A DNA stretch of 64,000 nucleotides from Pseudomonadota bacterium (GTDB lineage Bacteria > Pseudomonadota > Gammaproteobacteria > Burkholderiales > Sulfuriferulaceae), in assembly GCA_021845925.1 (NCBI GenBank), contig JAJZUW010000008.1:1-64000 (forward strand), in the 5' to 3' direction. Below the pieces are notes generated by a model. It had not been told where the DNA came from. It saw only the letters and a list, made by a program, of their open reading frames with translations, and searched no databases. Both the position numbers and the translations under genes were made by a program. Within the stretch, counting starts at the first letter, position 1. Every line of letters begins with the position of its first letter. This document shows, piece by piece, positions 2,357-35,221 of the stretch.

Positions 2357-2515
2357 TCATACTGCAAACTTCAAATTATCGGAATCAGCGTCACAGCTTT
2401 TTGACGGGTTTAGCCACACCCGGTCTACGTGGTTCCAGTTGCGAGTAGCCCGGCTTTTCCATCGCTCCGGCCTGGCCAGTTTCGCGGCTTCATAGGTGAC
2501 TTTGCGTTGCGCCTC
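2357..2515 (-). pseudogene. Transposase C-terminal remnant
   Basis: In one leftward frame the DNA reads RKVTYEAAKLARPERWKSR, then ATRNWNHVDRVWLNP, and ends at TGA 2357-2359. A run of this kind (pairs of basic residues, PERW, TRNW, then VWLNP) is typical of the extreme C-terminus of IS3-type OrfB transposases. The fragment overlaps in another frame the 3' end of the HAD pseudogene, so an insertion sequence probably broke that gene and was then itself lost. No upstream DDE domain is present. Confidence 0.6.
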
Positions 2516-3081
2516 AGATCCTTTGCAAGTTGCTGATTCTTCTCGCGCTCTTTGTTCAGCGCAGCCTTGTTGGCTTTTTCGGAATCATGACCCAGTCGCG
2601 CCGAATCGCTGACGGTCACCACGCCAGATGCAACCTGCCAGACAGTCAGGTCCGGTTTGTCGTTTCCAACATACACAAAGCCCCGGGAACCCAATTTTTC
2701 AACCAGCGCTTCGCGTTTGCGGGTGAGCTTCAGATTGATAGTGGCATTCGAAGCCAATACGTCATCGAAAATACCCAGATGGGCGGCAACCCGGCTTGCC
2801 AATAATTCGTTGGATGCAGTGGCCAGCACCAATCTGGCACCCTGTTCCTTTTCGGTTCGCAGCCAGTTTAGTAATGGTTCGTGGTACGGCAGCAGCGATG
2901 GATCAATATCGGTGGCTCTGGCCAGTTGTTCCCTCAGTGAAGCCCGCTCGGTAGCCAGCCAGCCAGCCAGTTGCAGAATTGCAACCGGCGAACGACCAGC
3001 CAATCGATTTGCTGTCTCCAGCAACATGTCACTGCGCAATAAGGTACCGTCAAGATCAACAACGATGGTTTTAAACACCAT
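2425..3081 (-). pseudogene. HAD hydrolase domain of a truncated HAD-UbiA type prenyltransferase
   Basis: The frame opens with a HAD motif I (TIVVDLDGTLLRSDML) and continues through LLPYHEPLLNWL, LVLATASNELLASRVAAHLG (motif II region) and FVYVGNDKPDLTVWQVA (motif IV region). This closely follows the N-terminal HAD domain of proteins in which a UbiA-family prenyltransferase (phosphoribosyl-decaprenol type) follows directly. Here the membrane domain is missing: after about residue 170 the frame becomes lysine-rich sequence and then overlaps a transposase C-terminus in another frame. The whole protein should exceed 450 residues. ATG at 3081 is chosen because it lies next to motif I; 3105 is also possible. 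The HAD domain may still be made, but the original function is probably lost. Confidence 0.6.
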
Positions 3082-3183
3082 GGAACACAACTCGAGCATA
3101 TTCACGAGTTTGAATTATACACACCTCTCAATGACAGTTACGTTGTGCAGTCTGAACACGCTCACTAAATAGCGATTAATCAT

Positions 3184-19514: not shown

Positions 19515-20336
19515 ATGACCGATTCCCAGACGACAGACCAGGCCATGCTGATCCAGGAGCTGGTCAAGCAATCTACTGCCATAGTCCGGCACGTAGACCT
19601 ATTTCTGTGGATGCAAGGCAGTGTCAGGCAGATTTTCCCGCACGATGTCATGATTGCCGCCTGGGGGGACTTCCACCGTCTGAGCCTGCACTACGACGTT
19701 ATTTCTTCCATCCCGGCGGTTCGCACCCGCCATCTGATCGAAGCCAGGGATAATGTCGATGCACTGATGAGACTGCTCTACACGCGCTGGAAGCAGAATG
19801 GATCCAAATGGTTTACCATCAACCGGTCGCTCGACGAGCAAAGCCTGTTTTCGCTGCCAGAAACCAACAAGATCTGTTTTCTGAAAAATCTGCAGCACAT
19901 GCGTTCACTGCTGGTCTACGGCATGCGGGATCTGCGTGGCGGCGTCGACAGCCTGTATGTGTTTTTCAGCACCACCGAGCTGTTTCCCCTCAACCGGACA
20001 GCCATGGACATGCTGGTTCCTCACATCGATTCCGTACTGCGCAGAATCGAATCCCTGGCCGAAGCAGACCCGCCACCGGATTACAGCACCATTCTGGAAC
20101 AGATTCCGGACAACACCTCACGGGCCGATTCGCAAAAACTGTTGCTGGGCATCCTGACCGACAGGGAAATCGAGATTCTCCAGTGGGTCAAGTCCGGCAA
20201 GAGCAATCAGGAAATCGGTATGATTCTCGAAATCAGTCACAACACTGTCAAAAACCATCTGAAACGGATTTATGACAAGCTGGGCGTGTCAACCCGCCTT
20301 CAGGCTCTCAATCGCTATGCGGAGCTTCTGAAATGA
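19515..20336 (+). CDS. epsA: EpsA-type LuxR-family transcriptional regulator
   Basis: 273 residues from ATG 19515 (MTDSQTTDQAML); the frame is open 66 codons further upstream, but that part has no family likeness. The C-terminal LuxR helix-turn-helix (LTDREIEILQWVKSGKSNQE, then HNTVKNHLKRIYDKLGVSTR) follows a roughly 200-residue N-terminal domain seen in EpsA regulators of exosortase-linked EPS clusters. It probably activates the eps and exosortase genes; the signal it senses is unknown. Its stop overlaps the exosortase start (ATGA), so regulator and exosortase are co-expressed. It is divergent from the sorting-tail protein gene. Confidence 0.85.
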   Translation: MTDSQTTDQAMLIQELVKQSTAIVRHVDLFLWMQGSVRQIFPHDVMIAAWGDFHRLSLHYDVISSIPAVRTRHLIEARDNVDALMRLLYTRWKQNGSKWFTINRSLDEQSLFSLPETNKICFLKNLQHMRSLLVYGMRDLRGGVDSLYVFFSTTELFPLNRTAMDMLVPHIDSVLRRIESLAEADPPPDYSTILEQIPDNTSRADSQKLLLGILTDREIEILQWVKSGKSNQEIGMILEISHNTVKNHLKRIYDKLGVSTRLQALNRYAELLK

Positions 20337-21943
20337 AATCCGTGCCGATGTCCAGACCAGACACCGGCGCAGCGGGCTCATTCCATCACTCCAGACGCTG
20401 GCTGGCATTGCTGGCCGTCATCACGCTGGCCCTGCTGACAGTCGCATTTTTTGGCGGACTCGAACAACTGGTACAGCGCTGGTCTTCGTATGAAGAATAC
20501 AGCCACGGTTTTTTTGTACCGCCGATCGTTCTCTGGCTACTGTGGCGCCAGCGCAGATCCATCGTTCCGATATTCGGCGATGCAAGCTGGCTGGCTGTTC
20601 CGGCGATTCTTCTGGCGATACTGTTTTTGCTGACCGGGGAATATTCGGCCTTGTTCATCCTGATTCAGGCGGGTTTTGTGCTTGGTCTCATGGCCATCGT
20701 GCTGGCCACCGGCGGCCTGAATTTCATGAAAATCGCCGCCGTGCCGATGTTCATGCTCATTCTGACCATTCCATTGCCTTATTTTCTCGAAGCCGAGCTG
20801 TCGGCACGCCTGCAACTGTTGTCTACCACCCTCGGTTCCGCCGTACTGGACCTGCTCAACATCCCGGTCTACACACAGGGAAACCTGATTGATCTCGGCG
20901 ACTTCCGCCTGCAGATACAAGACGCGTGCAGCGGGTTGCGCTACCTGTACCCGTTGCTGAGCATCGGTTTTATTTTTGCCTACCTGTACCAGGCGTCATT
21001 CTGGCGACGCGGCGTGCTTTTTCTGTCTGCCATTCCGATCAGCATCCTGATGAATGTCATCCGCATTGCCGGCACCGGCATTCTGGTCAATCTGTGGGGG
21101 CCCGCCATGGCGGAAGGGTTTCTGCATGAATTTGCCGGCTGGCTGATCTTCATGCTGTGTCTGCTGATCATGGCCGGCGAAATCAAACTGCTTGAACAGA
21201 CCGGCCGCAAGCGCAGTCTCGGCGAAAGTCTCTCCCTGCCGGAACCGGCCCATCATCCGGATAAAGCCGGACTGGTACGTTACCGGCCGTTGCTGGTTGT
21301 GGCGTTCATGACCGCATTTGCCATCCTGGCCGACCATCACATGACTCACCGGCAGGAGTATGTGCCGCCGCACCTGCCGCTGGACAGCTTTCCGTTGCAA
21401 CTGGGCAACTGGCAAGCACAACACCCGGATGACATCAACCATGCCAGCGAACTGATTGGCACCGGCGACTACCTGATGGCGAATTACCGGGAAAACAATG
21501 GCACACCGGTCAATCTGTTTCTGTCCTACTACCCGTCACAGAGCAAAGGGGTATCCCCCCATTCACCAGAAGTCTGCATGCCCGGCAATGGCTGGATCAT
21601 GTCGTCTCCAACCGTCATGCATCTGGCGATGCCAGATGGCCATACACTCAGCCTGTTACGTGCCACCATCTCGCGCAGCAACGAACAGCAGCTGATGTAT
21701 TACTGGTTTGATGAACGCGGCCGCGACCTTACCAACGCCTATCTGATGAAATGGTATCTGATCCGTGATGCCATCCTGACGCATCGCTCGGATGGCGGCA
21801 TGGTTCGTCTGATCACCCCGATCCTGAACACAGAATTGCCTGACAAGGCTGACCAGCGCCTGCAGTCTTTCCTGCACACGATCTATCCTGTCCTTGGCGC
21901 CTACATCCCGGACAGTTCAGCCACCGCCTCCGACAACCAGTGA
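20333..21943 (+). CDS. xrt: Exosortase fused to EpsI domain
   Basis: 536 residues. The N-terminal membrane part (about 280 residues, several helices) carries the exosortase active site: Cys199 in QDACSGLRYLYPLLS, Arg244 in MNVIRIAGTG and His265 in FLHEFAGW. A linker and one helix lead into an EpsI domain (from about 350) with the conserved SPHSPEVCMPGNGW. Exosortases recognise PEP-CTERM-like tails at the periplasmic face and cleave or transfer the protein; EpsI partners them. The fused form is known in some exosortase subfamilies (XrtA- and XrtD-like), while the adjacent EpsA regulator is more often seen with EpsH/XrtB, so the subfamily is left open. Confidence 0.9.
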   Translation: MKSVPMSRPDTGAAGSFHHSRRWLALLAVITLALLTVAFFGGLEQLVQRWSSYEEYSHGFFVPPIVLWLLWRQRRSIVPIFGDASWLAVPAILLAILFLLTGEYSALFILIQAGFVLGLMAIVLATGGLNFMKIAAVPMFMLILTIPLPYFLEAELSARLQLLSTTLGSAVLDLLNIPVYTQGNLIDLGDFRLQIQDACSGLRYLYPLLSIGFIFAYLYQASFWRRGVLFLSAIPISILMNVIRIAGTGILVNLWGPAMAEGFLHEFAGWLIFMLCLLIMAGEIKLLEQTGRKRSLGESLSLPEPAHHPDKAGLVRYRPLLVVAFMTAFAILADHHMTHRQEYVPPHLPLDSFPLQLGNWQAQHPDDINHASELIGTGDYLMANYRENNGTPVNLFLSYYPSQSKGVSPHSPEVCMPGNGWIMSSPTVMHLAMPDGHTLSLLRATISRSNEQQLMYYWFDERGRDLTNAYLMKWYLIRDAILTHRSDGGMVRLITPILNTELPDKADQRLQSFLHTIYPVLGAYIPDSSATASDNQ

Positions 21944-30445: not shown

Positions 30446-31840
30446 ATGTCATACAGCAGCTTTGACCACCCGGCGCTCAATCTGGCCCGCCGTCTGGTAA
30501 ATCCGATGATTGTGTTTACCAGCCTGTTTCTGGCGGTCGAGATCACCCATCCGCCATTTACCAATTTCCATCTGATTCTTGGCACGCTGGCATTTTTGTT
30601 GTCGACCGAAGTGTTCGACAGTTTCGAATTTTTTGAAATGTCCACGCAAGGAACTGCGAACCAGATCCGCTACATGACGGATCTGGTCACCGCCTGGGCT
30701 ATCGTACTTGGTCTGCTGGCCTTGCTCGGGATGACCACCAATACATTGCACCTGTTTCCACCTATCATGCTGGTGACATGGGCGATGACGACACCAGTTC
30801 TGTTATTCCTGACCCATGCGTATATCCGCTCTCGGGTGGAATCGATGTACCACAGCGGTAGCGTGCGGCGTGCGGTTATCGTCGGCGCCAATGCACTGGG
30901 TTACAAACTGGCGACCCATATCCACAAACAACGCAATCTGATGGTGCGGGTTGAAGCCTTTTTTGATGACCGTCAGGACGACCGCAGCGATCCATCGCTG
31001 TTACCGATTGTCGCCGGAGGACTGAATGAAGTCGCTGCCTACGTCGAAAAATTCGGCATCGATCTGGTGTACATTTCTTTTCCAATCATCGACAATCCAC
31101 GCATCGTCAGTCTGGTCAACTCATTGCGCGACACCACCGCTTCGGTTTATTTTGTGCCGAACATCTTCATCTTCGATCTGGTACAGGCACGCCTTGATTA
31201 TGTAAACGGCATTCCTGTCATTGGCGTGTTTGAATCACCTCTGGTTGGCATCAATGCCATCCACAAACGAATTTTTGATGTGGTCGTCTCATCCCTGATT
31301 CTGCTGATGATCAGTCCATTGATGATTCTGCTGGCCATCGGTGTCAAATTGTCGTCCCCCGGGCCGGTTTTTTTCAAGCAGCGTCGTTATGGCATGGATG
31401 GTGAAGAAATACTGGTCTACAAATTCCGTTCAATGAGAACCATGGACAATGGTGACAAGGTGGAGCAAGCCAAACGCAACGATGCCCGCGTCACTCCATT
31501 CGGCGCTTTCATCCGTAAAACATCACTGGACGAACTGCCGCAGATGATCAATGTCCTGCAGGGAAAAATGAGCATCGTTGGCCCACGCCCTCATGCAGTC
31601 GCGCACAATGAACATTACCGGAAGCTGATTCATGGTTACATGTGGCGCCACAAAGTCAAACCTGGCATCACAGGACTGGCACAAGTCAGCGGATTCCGTG
31701 GTGAAACCGACACCATCGAAAAGATGGAAGGTCGCGTACTGCATGACATTATTTATCTGAAAAACTGGTCTATCTGGCTGGACATCCTGATCATTCTCAA
31801 AACCATCAAACTGGTGTTCAGCGATTCACAGGCCTACTAG
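30446..31840 (+). CDS. epsB: Undecaprenyl-phosphate sugar-1-phosphate transferase (EpsB/WcaJ type)
   Basis: 464 residues from ATG 30446, preceded by AGGAC. Four N-terminal helices, a central CoA-binding-like Rossmann domain ([20 protein letters not shown]) and a further membrane segment lead into the bacterial sugar transferase domain (from about 270): [58 protein letters not shown] and [11 protein letters not shown]. This is the full polyisoprenylphosphate hexose-1-phosphate transferase architecture. It starts EPS repeat synthesis, most often with glucose-1-phosphate. Transcribed alone, divergent from galE, with a tiny gene 112 bases downstream. Confidence 0.92.
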
Positions 31841-31952
31841 GGCACGCTCGCCCATATCTGGCATGAAACCTGCTTTTGATCATATACATTTCTTTTCAGG
31901 AAATGTGCGAACAAAAACATGCCGGTGACAAAACCGGAAGCAAGGAGGTTAT

Positions 31953-32132
31953 ATGCTGAAACCCATGCTCATCGTAACAACTACTCTGTTGGGCGCGTTA
32001 CCGGGTCCAATGACTGCCGACAAGGCGCCAGCCGCTGTCGAGCAACCGTCCAGCCAGAATGCCGGCACCGCTGCGCTGCTGATCACCGGCGCAGCCTTGA
32101 CCGGGCTTCGCATGCGCAGAAAATCCCACTAA
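31953..32132 (+). CDS. 59-residue protein with signal peptide and sorting-signal-like tail
   Basis: A small gene beginning MLKPMLIVTTTLLGAL, preceded by a near-perfect ribosome site (AAGGAGG, four bases before the ATG) and followed 22 bases later by a strong terminator. The protein has an N-terminal hydrophobic stretch like a signal peptide, a short Ala/Pro/Ser/Gln stretch, a second hydrophobic span (AALLITGAALTG) and a basic end (LRMRRKSH). The C-terminal order (Pro/Ser-containing motif, hydrophobic span, basic cluster) is that of PEP-CTERM-like exosortase substrates, though the motif (EQPSSQNAG) is not canonical. Mature length would be about 35 residues. Alternatives are a small double-membrane-span protein. 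No homologue is recognised. Confidence 0.65.
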   Translation: MLKPMLIVTTTLLGALPGPMTADKAPAAVEQPSSQNAGTAALLITGAALTGLRMRRKSH

Positions 32133-32154
32133 GCCAAACCACGCTACTAACGCA

Positions 32155-32178
32155 GGGCGGCAAATGCCGCCCTTTTTT
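32155..32178 (+). terminator. Rho-independent terminator after the small gene
   Basis: GGGCGGC (32155-32161) and GCCGCCC (32166-32172) form a perfect 7-bp GC stem with an AAAT loop, followed by T6. Confidence 0.92.
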
Positions 32179-32237
32179 GTCACCCCGGCCAACTTGACGT
32201 AAACTGGTTGCTTCGTTCGTGCCTCTGCCCCACCATC

Positions 32238-32894
32238 ATGTCTGTCTGGCGAGAATTGTCGTTCACGGGAAGCTTTAATGTGACAGTGTCGGCTGCTGTC
32301 GTCATTACGCTGTGGCTTGCATGGCAGCCCGACAAGTCCCCGCTCATCCGCTGGCTTGGGCTGATGTCCATCGCCACTTTGCTGGTGGTGGCCAGCAAAC
32401 TCGTCTTTCTTGGCTGGGGAATAGGCATCCGCAGCATCGATTTCACAGGTTTCAGCGGTCACGCCATGCGATCTGCCGCCATTTACCCAGTGCTGTTTTT
32501 CCTGCTGGTCGCCTGGCTGCATACCGGCAGCCGGAGCCTGGCTGCCATTTTCGGTCTGCTGCTTGCCGCCATGGTGGCCTGGTCGAGAATCATGGTGCAT
32601 GCACATTCGCTCTCGGAAGCAGCGAGCGGTTTTCTGCTCGGTGGTCTGACCAGCCTGACTTTTCTGTACACCATCCGCAACCGTACCGAACTGAAAATTC
32701 ATCCTGTGCTTGGCATCCTCAGCCTGGCTACCCTGCTGTTTCCTCCACAGATGACACCTGTACCGACCCAAAGCATCCTGATCCGAACAGCCCTGTTCAT
32801 CTCCGGTCACCCAGCCCCTTACATCCGCGCAACCTGGCGCATGGCACCACTGCCATCATCGATCAGCAACCACCCACCGCACACGACCCAGTGA
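32238..32894 (+). CDS. PAP2-like membrane phosphatase, degenerate motifs
   Basis: 218 residues from ATG 32238 (MSVWRELSF); no good ribosome site is visible, so the start is tentative. Five or six helices. FSGHAMRSAAIYP resembles PAP2 motif 2 (PSGH, but Phe replaces Pro), and SRIMVHAHSLSEA resembles motif 3 (SR-x5-H-x3-D, with Glu in place of Asp). The KxxxxxxRP motif 1 is not clear. PAP2 enzymes dephosphorylate undecaprenyl pyrophosphate or similar lipids, which would recycle the EPS carrier lipid, but the changed residues leave activity uncertain. The C-terminal 60 residues are Pro-rich and poorly conserved in appearance. Convergent with the EpsD-like gene. Confidence 0.55.
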   Translation: MSVWRELSFTGSFNVTVSAAVVITLWLAWQPDKSPLIRWLGLMSIATLLVVASKLVFLGWGIGIRSIDFTGFSGHAMRSAAIYPVLFFLLVAWLHTGSRSLAAIFGLLLAAMVAWSRIMVHAHSLSEAASGFLLGGLTSLTFLYTIRNRTELKIHPVLGILSLATLLFPPQMTPVPTQSILIRTALFISGHPAPYIRATWRMAPLPSSISNHPPHTTQ

Positions 32895-32904
32895 TAACGC
32901 ACAT

Positions 32905-33729
32905 TCAGCGCTGCTGATAGGCGATCCTGGCCGTCTTGCGCAAAGCCGCTTCGCGTTTTTGCAACGCTCTCATGCCAGCATCTCTGAGCATGTCCTGCGC
33001 CACCAGCACACGGGCTGCCGCAAAATCCAGGGGTTGCGCATCCGTGGATTCGAGCACCCAGATTTCCAGAAACCGGGCATCCTGGCTGGCCACGAACGCC
33101 GACCAGGGACGGCTGGCCGCCAGTCTTGCCAGCCGGTCGGCAGACAGGGATTCCGGCTCCATGATTTCGCTCACGCGTGAAAAGTCTGCATGCTGCACAG
33201 CAAGCCAGCTGGCCGCTGCATCATCCAGCACCGAATAGCGTGACAACCCCTGCAACCAGAGCTGCTGATGATAGGCATCGCCCTGCAGAATCCAGCGCGA
33301 GACATGATAGGCACGCCGGTCGGCATACAATAGGGGATGACTCTGGTACCAGCCCTGCAGCGCCGTCAGATCGGGGGGCGGGGCAGCTGCTGCCAGCTGG
33401 CGGCCATAATCTTCGAGCAGAGTTGTTTTGCGGGCATCCATCAAATCCAGCATGACCGAAGGCAGGCGATCAACACCGGCTTCGCGTGCGGCATCCTGCC
33501 CGAGGTGCTGATCGATGACTGCATCGACGGCAGCCCGCTCGGCGTCTGTGGCCGGACTGTCCGTCAGTTCCGGATGCCGGTGCAGGTATTGATCGACCTC
33601 GGCAAAAGTGATTTCTTCACCATTCACGGTTGCCAGCACCTGGCTGTGACCGGTTTCGTTTTTCGGCTGGCAACCAGACACCATCACCAGCAGACCGACC
33701 ATTCCGACAAGCTGACGCAGCTTCACCAT
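32905..33729 (-). CDS. epsD: EpsD-type peptidyl-prolyl isomerase lipoprotein
   Basis: 274 residues from ATG 33729, chosen because GAGGGGG precedes it and a lipoprotein signal follows (LVGMVGLLVMVSGCQPK); the frame is open upstream to 33846 but with no family features. The body (VLATVNGEEITFAEVDQYLH) is like SurA/PpiC-type foldases, with a parvulin-like C-terminal half that lacks obvious active-site motifs. EpsD proteins are periplasmic foldases specific to exosortase/EPS clusters. It lies at the far right of the EPS locus, convergent with the PAP2-like gene, away from the export operon. Confidence 0.8.
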   Translation of the reverse strand: MVKLRQLVGMVGLLVMVSGCQPKNETGHSQVLATVNGEEITFAEVDQYLHRHPELTDSPATDAERAAVDAVIDQHLGQDAAREAGVDRLPSVMLDLMDARKTTLLEDYGRQLAAAAPPPDLTALQGWYQSHPLLYADRRAYHVSRWILQGDAYHQQLWLQGLSRYSVLDDAAASWLAVQHADFSRVSEIMEPESLSADRLARLAASRPWSAFVASQDARFLEIWVLESTDAQPLDFAAARVLVAQDMLRDAGMRALQKREAALRKTARIAYQQR

Positions 33730-33814
33730 TGCCCCCTCGAACGACCGGACAAACCGGCAGGAATACACTCCGGCAGAGGCCACCCTGCCGTCACAGGGGG
33801 CAGTGTAGCAGCAT

Positions 33815-35221
33815 TCAGGCGTGTGGCAATCCGGACGCACTGGCAAACACCACGCGTACCAGCAGCCCCCGGCCGGATGCCGGCGTCAGAATCTGCAAAC
33901 GGGCATGGTGACTGCGGGCAATTTCGGCCACGATCGACAATCCCAGGCCACAACCGTTGCCTGGACTGCCTTCAATCCGGTAAAAGCGTTCGAGCACTTT
34001 TTCGCGTTGCGCCTCCGGAATACCGGGGCCATTGTCCTCGACTTCCAGTATGCCAGCGCCATCGTAACGGCTGCGTACCGTAATCACCCCACCTTCCTGG
34101 GTATAACGCAGTGCGTTATCAACCAGATTGCCCAGCATTTCGCCCAGTTGCAGCATGTCGGCTTCGACCATCACCGGTTCCAGCTCGAATCCGAGATCAA
34201 TGTTCCGCGCCTGGGCGCGTGCCAGCCACATGGCCATGTCAAGTTCGACCAGATCGGCCAGATTGATGTACTGCATGTTGAGCAGATGGCTGCCACCGGG
34301 CTCGGCGCGCGCCAGCGCCAGCAACTGGTTGGCCAGGTGGGTGACGCGACGCGTGGTGTCCAGCACCACACGCAATGCATCGCGCGTTTCGTCAGAACGG
34401 CTGTCGCGCAGCAGCAGCTCAACCTGTGTCTGCAAGCCGGCCAGAGGCGTTCTGAGCTGATGCGCCGCATTGGCCAGAAACCGTTGCTGGGTATCCAGCA
34501 CGTGGGCCAGATCGGCCAGCAACTGGTTCAGGGCCACGATCACTGGCCGGATTTCCAGCGGTGCCGACATTTCATTGACCGGATGCAGATCGTGCCAGGA
34601 GCGGTTGGCGATTTCCTGCCTCAGGGCATCCAGTGGTTTCAGACCATGCCCGATGCCAAACGACACCATGGCAATCGCGGTCAGCACAACCAGCAAGGCC
34701 GGCGTGATCATCAGCGCCATCAGTTCGTACAGGTTGCGATCGCGCCTGATCAGCGTTTCGGCCACCTGGATGATCACCTCCGGCGCCTCGTTGCCTACCA
34801 GCGGATCACTGTCCAGTCGAACGCGGACGACCCCGACCCGGACATTGGCGCCGCGGATCACGGCATCGTAAAAGCGTGGCTTGCTGGACAGCCTGTCCGG
34901 AACAGGCAGGTTCATGTTGCCGGCAATCTGCTGATGTCGGGCATCCAGAATCTGGAACCAGGCCACATCATAGACATGCGTGAACAACGTGTGCAGGGTT
35001 TCCGGCGACATCTGCAGCACCAGTTTTCCGTTCTGCACCACCACCCGTTGCGACAGGGCCTGTACCGGATCCATCAGCACCCGGTCAAAGGCATGAGTTG
35101 CCGCCAGACGGGCGCCATAAAACGATACGCCGGTCGCCACCACCAGCAATCCGAGCAAGGGACCGAGAAGGGAACCGAGCAGCAACCCCCGCAGGGTGGT
35201 TTCACGCCGGCTGTCTGACAT
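33815..35221 (-). CDS. Sensor histidine kinase (TctE/QseC type)
   Basis: 468 residues. Two membrane segments (about 12-38 and 168-195) enclose a periplasmic sensor domain of the 2CSK/TctE kind. A HAMP-like linker is followed by HisKA with the phosphoacceptor in FLANAAHQLRTPLAGL and an HATPase domain with N box NLVDNALRY, G1 DNGPGIPEAQ and G2 GCGLGLSIVAEI. TctE-like kinases often sense tricarboxylates; the ligand here is unknown. Its start overlaps the response regulator's end by 20 bases, so the two form a coupled pair. Confidence 0.88.
   Translation of the reverse strand: MSDSRRETTLRGLLLGSLLGPLLGLLVVATGVSFYGARLAATHAFDRVLMDPVQALSQRVVVQNGKLVLQMSPETLHTLFTHVYDVAWFQILDARHQQIAGNMNLPVPDRLSSKPRFYDAVIRGANVRVGVVRVRLDSDPLVGNEAPEVIIQVAETLIRRDRNLYELMALMITPALLVVLTAIAMVSFGIGHGLKPLDALRQEIANRSWHDLHPVNEMSAPLEIRPVIVALNQLLADLAHVLDTQQRFLANAAHQLRTPLAGLQTQVELLLRDSRSDETRDALRVVLDTTRRVTHLANQLLALARAEPGGSHLLNMQYINLADLVELDMAMWLARAQARNIDLGFELEPVMVEADMLQLGEMLGNLVDNALRYTQEGGVITVRSRYDGAGILEVEDNGPGIPEAQREKVLERFYRIEGSPGNGCGLGLSIVAEIARSHHARLQILTPASGRGLLVRVVFASASGLPHA

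Follow-up and report, generated by a model that had tools for sequence, protein, structure and literature searches.

A 59-residue gene behind wcaJ probably encodes a diverged representative of a miniature PEP-CTERM-like protein family

The PEP-CTERM/exosortase-EpsH system described by Haft et al. (TIGR02595; PMC1569441) unites, in the sections of that paper used here, an exopolysaccharide locus with proteins that start with a hydrophobic leader and end in a hydrophobic span and a basic cluster. Of 167 proteobacterial PEP-CTERM genes, 99 were reported there to have a -24(GG)/-12(GC) motif upstream, which ends at a mean distance of 71 nt from the start codon. Cutting and attachment by bacterial exosortases are proposed, and not chemically demonstrated, in the consulted portions of the cited exosortase papers. 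For PepA of Aquincola tertiaricarbonis, the available part of the study (PMC9850573) gives a mapped promoter (TGGCAC and CTGCTT), a terminator before the next gene and an EPS context, and overexpression in an rpoN1 mutant resulted in less released soluble and more bound polymer. Lipid anchoring has been described for an archaeosortase, an archaeal system, in the part of the source used here (PMC7157517).

In a 64,000-nt stretch of genomic DNA from a sulfur-oxidising bacterium of the genus Sulfuriferula, hereafter the window, we examined a very short ORF that shares the locus type, the span with its basic cluster and the -24/-12 motif with the system of Haft et al. and has a leader that looks hydrophobic by eye. 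Unlike that system, as presented in the sections used (PMC1569441), the product has 59 aa with almost no body and no Pro-Glu-Pro, the genome has no detected PrsK, and the stretch read upstream of the promoter-like site does not contain the TTTACA core of motif 1. The two elements of this site (TGGCAT and CTGCTT) are one base apart from the PepA promoter, and a terminator before the next gene and an EPS context are likewise present. PepA, whose model spans 261 positions, is larger than the window protein, and its role in polysaccharide retention serves only as an analogy. The window exosortase shares the exosortase/archaeosortase signature TIGR04178 with the archaeal system.

The ORF runs on the forward strand, as do the features below unless stated otherwise, from an ATG at 31953 to a TAA stop ending at 32132, and encodes the 59-aa product MLKPMLIVTTTLLGALPGPMTADKAPAAVEQPSSQNAGTAALLITGAALTGLRMRRKSH. 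The Shine-Dalgarno sequence AAGGAGG (31942 to 31948) lies 4 nt upstream of the ATG and is the sole AAGGAGG on either strand of the 64 kb with a start codon 3 to 9 nt behind it. Hairpin search and folding revealed an intrinsic terminator (32154 to 32178), in which a hairpin of 8 pairs (32154 to 32173) is followed by a T run; a 50-nt piece with this terminator folds at -17.5 kcal/mol (z -2.9), and 2 of 200 shuffles were equally good. An earlier reading of the sequence alone (the sequence-only reading) had described a very short gene with a near-perfect ribosome site, a stop and its own terminator, placed between an EPS initiating transferase and a PAP2 gene, and both the gene structure and the location were confirmed. 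The upstream neighbour (30449 to 31840, in the longest ORF from 30257) is a wcaJ/EpsB-type initiating sugar phosphotransferase (TIGR03023, 491 bits over a cut-off of 411). Downstream lie a PAP2-family gene (32208 to 32894; PF01569, 38.5 over 27.2), whose true start is probably further in, and, on the reverse strand, an EpsD-like peptidyl-prolyl isomerase gene (32905 to 33846; 97.7 bits, below the 108.9 cut-off).

The codon log-likelihood of the ORF is 5.0, the highest among the six frames at this place (others -15.9 to 1.1). Among 186 true in-frame segments, 9.7% score below this value and 90% above it, and it is reached by 9.4% of 930 out-of-frame segments and by none of 3000 random sequences. 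On their own, these coding statistics are intermediate and not decisive, and the case for the gene therefore rests on comparison with other genomes.

For this comparison, 17 Sulfuriferula genomes beside the window's own were sampled. Counting at least 60% identity to wcaJ gave 18 loci, 11 from Sulfuriferula (window included) and 7 from the Thiobacillus group (L100 to L106; G, L and C numbers denote genomes, loci and contigs). At 17 of these a PEP-CTERM-like gene is found behind wcaJ (10/11 in Sulfuriferula, the exception being G005, and 7/7 in the Thiobacillus group). The product has at most 113 aa at 16 of the 17; at the remaining one, in G016, it has 164 to 187 aa depending on the start codon. 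These small proteins are here called minis, and the 59-aa gene shares their position directly downstream of a wcaJ ortholog. The sequence-only reading had proposed a search for short ORFs of the same layout downstream of wcaJ in related genomes; they do occur, directly behind it, and exosortases were found in all 11 Sulfuriferula genomes with wcaJ at this identity as well as in six of the seven Thiobacillus-group genomes, not in that of L101.

Six genomes carry minis in tandem, each with a hydrophobic leader, a passenger and a near-constant tail like VPEADTWAMMAVGLGLVGLRLRRK: five in G013, four each in G012 and G014, and two each in G007, G010 and G011, with one further mini on another contig of G007 (C48). 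Single-copy minis are present at G001, L100 to L106 and L111. In G007 the order wcaJ-mini-mini-PAP2-EpsD is that of the window except for one extra mini, and its PAP2 and EpsD-like products are identical to those of the window in 90 of 206 and 86 of 258 aligned columns, respectively. For nine Thiobacillus-group and Sulfuriferula members of 104 to 113 aa (alignment A3), omega was 0.21 to 0.62 in the 34 of 36 pairs that gave finite values. These nine are under purifying selection; the window gene, which has no close ortholog, is outside this set. Within the arrays of four to five minis (L065 in G013, L059 in G014, L062 in G012), mean tail identity within a genome is 0.93 to 0.96, and the passengers differ and are often His- or Gly-rich. 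Tail DNA likeness was 0.86 within and 0.76 between genomes (24 and 129 pairs from 18 minis). Between the two minis of G011 (L061) there is a third, broken-looking tail, a 34-aa ORF ending VCEADTRVMKGAGLGLVAL in a frame of 56 aa (profile E 2.9e-4), which is probably a relic.

More distant wcaJ loci gave a mixed picture. Below 60% identity in Sulfuriferula, in a survey of loci other than C41 and C46 of G007, a 225-aa PEP-CTERM protein lies behind the wcaJ on C5 of G008 (53%), and behind the split wcaJ of G003 come another ORF and then a 164-aa PEP-CTERM-like protein at +1079; no PEP-CTERM-like gene was seen behind wcaJ in G002, G004, G006 and G015 (38-39%). Of 39 wcaJ loci, 37 (all except L133 and L134) were examined with a tail filter. 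This filter missed the known minis at L096 and at L100 to L103, L105 and L111, the last six of which were seen in an unfiltered reading, so the apparent absence in distant loci has weak support. The unfiltered reading also showed a 234-aa PEP-CTERM protein at +432 of L109 (55%), and no PEP-CTERM-like gene at L108, L110 and L112. Across 399 genomes of the order, with at most 14 candidates scored in each, there was no strong short-frame match outside Sulfuriferula; the other matches at E ≤ 1e-9 were frames of 180 aa or more.

The link between the 59-aa protein and the minis lies in the tail. As a lone query against 61 genomes, the protein gave only weak matches outside its own genome (best E 0.003), and the weak tail matches in G010, G012, G013 and G014 were found to stand in tandem behind wcaJ, which revealed the arrays. 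A profile was built from 20 minis (67 to 95 aa from their likely starts), none of them from the window. Searched against the 2.34-Mb genome at E ≤ 1, it matched a PEP-CTERM protein on C3 and, as the second and last match, the tail of the 59-aa gene (32031 to 32132, E 0.0035). Residues 36 to 59 align with a best score of 58. None of 2000 shuffles in which the hydrophobic block and the basic block were preserved scored as high; 2 of 2000 did when the basic end was kept and only the span was shuffled. Judged from these alignments, the tail is homologous to mini tails. It comprises a hydrophobic span and a basic end (residues 37 to 59, 32061 to 32129), and its end GLRMRRKSH corresponds to mini ends such as GLRLRRKNK.

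The remainder of the protein is less typical. The C terminus has the hydrophobic span and subsequent basic cluster that characterize PEP-CTERM proteins (AGTAALLITGAALTGL-RMRRKSH), and the Pro-Glu-Pro that is near-invariant in them (TIGR02595) is absent. Residues 29 to 36 (32037 to 32060) read VEQPSSQN where most other family members have VPEA or VPEV, and the register at the motif place is ambiguous: SQN can be set against the VPE of the minis, or EQP against the AEP or PEP of the longer sorted proteins of the same genome. In the latter register, the step from Pro to the first Arg is 21 residues by hand count, as in the protein ending VAEPSSGAMLLAGLGVLGLIGGFGRKSSRC. Four longer PEP-CTERM-like proteins of this genome (G000:C3:45080, C13:212098, C13:203302 and C12:57251) have PEP in two cases and AEP in two. 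Among the 17 members that stand first behind wcaJ, 13 keep Pro-Glu or Pro-Asp, as do 19 of the 20 minis of alignment A2 in the case of Pro-Glu; it is replaced, by eye, in the window protein, the first G007 mini (FSG) and the members at L104 and L106 (VSEV). The leader is hydrophobic by eye, with an ambiguous signal peptidase site, and its similarity to mini leaders is not above that of shuffles (338 of 2000 as good). The passenger has only about a dozen residues.

None of the curated sorting-domain models reached its cut-off with the 59-aa protein, and known sorting families were accordingly rejected as its identity. For TIGR02595 it stays short of the curated cut-off and is not listed at E ≤ 10, nor is the locus among the TIGR02595 matches of the genome at E ≤ 1. 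Few minis pass this model: a score of 16 bits is attained by one of eight relatives scanned and, in the genome-wide search, by three array members. With NF035944, the PEPxxWA-CTERM tail, four of the eight relatives score 31 to 34 bits and all eight stay below the cut-off of 35, as does the window protein with 12.1 bits, which does not have the P, E and W of that tail. Of the exosortase-substrate layout suggested by the sequence-only reading, the span, the basic end and, through homology, the tail as a whole hold. The supposed Pro/Ser sorting motif is not a recognised one, and the view of the product as a normal exosortase substrate is not supported, as Pro-Glu-Pro is replaced and the curated cut-offs are not reached; nor did the suggested part as carrier or anchor of the polymer gain support.

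Upstream of the gene lies a candidate sigma-54-type -24/-12 site, TGGCATGAAACCTGCT (GG-N10-GC; 31859 to 31874), which starts 94 nt and ends 78 nt before the ATG. With a weight matrix from nine distinct sites of other species, none from the window, position 31859 ranks third of about 128,000 positions; two other places outrank it, and the strict pattern alone occurs 27 times on both strands of the window. This pattern (TGG, C/T/A, A/T, N7, TGC, A/T, at 60 to 220 nt before the start) was found in 10 of 19 mini upstream regions, a set that leaves out the C48 mini of G007, against a mean of 0.4 and a maximum of 3 in 300 rounds of first-order Markov shuffling. It was absent from the other nine, and five of seven Thiobacillus-group members have no -24/-12 site within 200 nt upstream. 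Two sigma-70-like sites were found in the region 31700 to 32400, neither of them upstream of the 59-aa gene. Searches for the regulators PrsK and PrsR gave no PrsK in the genome at E ≤ 1e-30 and, for PrsR, at best 381 bits, below the cut-off of 502.6.

Counted from the -24 element, the transcript should start near 31885, and the first of two leader hairpins begins there (31885 to 31907; the second at 31922 to 31937). The leader (31884 to 31960) folds into both at -18 kcal/mol (z -2.0), and 6 of 200 shuffles were as good. Of 12 leaders that have a site, 10, the window included, are predicted to form a stem-loop that starts within the first three bases; 60 rounds of shuffling gave 1.8 on average and 6 at most. 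The array paralogs in this count do not represent independent cases. The first G007 mini has a site and no 5' stem-loop, giving 10 of 13 leaders overall. An alignment of 11 leader starts showed no shared sequence core, so that only the position of the stem-loop recurs. The suggestion that hairpins at 31886 to 31906 and 31922 to 31937 favour regulated expression thereby gained support from the -24/-12 site and the recurrent 5' stem-loop, as far as sequence can indicate regulation. Several array leaders (L059, L061, L062 and L065) begin GGGGC near the predicted start, and five have GCTCC about 20 nt later. A RAGATH-21 match on the minus strand (31849 to 31909; 23.4 bits against 70.3) was taken as chance, and Rfam families in five array loci gave only a 5S rRNA and no match to the leaders.

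The genome has two exosortases, both over their type cut-offs. The one in the window (20333 to 21943) is of XrtD type with a fused EpsI domain (TIGR04152, 481 bits over 400) and has the Cys, Arg and His motifs by eye; the other is an XrtB on C7 (294 over 275). G011, G012, G013 and G014 have one exosortase match each, within about 10 kb of wcaJ, and those of G013 and G014 as well as the near-wcaJ exosortase of G007 were typed as XrtB. Minis account for 5/5 of the TIGR02595 matches at E ≤ 1 in G013, 3/3 in G012, 1/1 in G014 and 1/2 in G011 (the other below the cut-off), where divergent substrates could escape the model. In G010 (64% complete), a single exosortase match stands beside two minis and three further TIGR02595 matches, of which two exceed the cut-off.

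The 59-aa ORF is very probably a real gene. Because of its intact frame, ribosome site, terminator, -24/-12 site, homologous tail and conserved gene order, we take it to be a minimal, diverged member of the wcaJ-linked mini PEP-CTERM-like family, a reading to which we give a probability of about two in three. The leader would send the peptide through Sec, and the tail would hold it in the inner membrane with the basic end on the cytoplasmic side. In normal members, the exosortase (XrtB in the typed array genomes) is expected to cut near Pro-Glu, and the passenger of roughly 20 to 60 residues may then be handed to a carrier and reach the surface or exopolysaccharide layer, in line with proposals for PEP-CTERM proteins, among them PepA in flocs; by analogy with PepA, the family may supply surface or matrix peptides. 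The 59-aa product is most likely exported, its tail keeping it in the membrane, and then either cut by XrtD or XrtB at a relaxed motif (EQP, similar to VAEPSS in a different tail of the genome) or left uncut in the membrane.

Other origins and fates have to be weighed against this. A chance ORF in the gap between wcaJ and PAP2 would be consistent with a codon score that overlaps those of out-of-frame segments, yet tail homology at a syntenic place, a ribosome site and a promoter-like site would then have to coincide, which makes this account very hard to credit. Decay of a former mini gene, perhaps still transcribed and without function, is easier to imagine: the gene is the shortest member, it stands alone where arrays have two to five copies, its motif is lost, its codon score is intermediate, and decay does occur in the family, as in the broken-looking tail of G011. 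Such a relic is nevertheless improbable, as the AAGGAGG-start pair is unique in the window, the -24/-12 site, leader stem-loop and terminator are intact, and single copies exist elsewhere too (at the G001, L100 to L106 and L111 loci).

In a further reading, a former mini substrate may no longer be processed and persist uncut in the membrane as a small protein next to WcaJ or PAP2, for example, if functional, as a regulator or assembly factor. The four first-behind-wcaJ members in which Pro-Glu is replaced by eye while the span and basic end stay would fit such a loss of cutting; its retention, as Pro-Glu or Pro-Asp, in the other 13 and in nearly all of the A2 minis speaks against it, and we regard this fate as unlikely. 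A diverged member of the mini family thus remains the preferred reading of the 59-aa gene, with its processing as set out above.

A wider and more tentative idea, on the doubtful side of possible, is that XrtB in this lineage is devoted mainly to cassette-like minis with a near-constant tail, a variable 20-60-residue passenger and often their own -24/-12 promoters, encoded beside the enzyme that initiates the glycan. The 59-aa gene would be their extreme case, a tail with hardly any passenger that works without Pro-Glu-Pro. If true, the cell would make an assortment of tiny peptides for its surface, or lipids or glycans capped with peptides. The 59-aa gene is best seen as a very short, diverged form of a known PEP-CTERM-like type, and the wider pattern of miniature substrates behind wcaJ is more interesting; no description of it was found in the PEP-CTERM and exosortase literature consulted, mostly titles and abstracts, and one may exist in print. 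In genomes where a single exosortase was detected and hardly any further PEP-CTERM protein is detectable, substrates so small would lend themselves to analysis of the processed end by mass spectrometry. As some members have Pro-Glu and others lack it at the same chromosomal position, they could also reveal what the sorting tail requires.

Two further observations were made in the window. Its polysaccharide cluster also carries an EpsA regulator, of a family named for XrtB systems, together with the XrtD exosortase, and the XrtB of the genome lies at G000:C7:9294-10007; with XrtB near wcaJ in G007, G013 and G014, an exosortase swap in the window cluster is possible. At 2425 to 3105, a 226-aa ORF looks by eye like the beginning of a HAD-like gene of 483 aa on C7, of which it may be a truncated copy.
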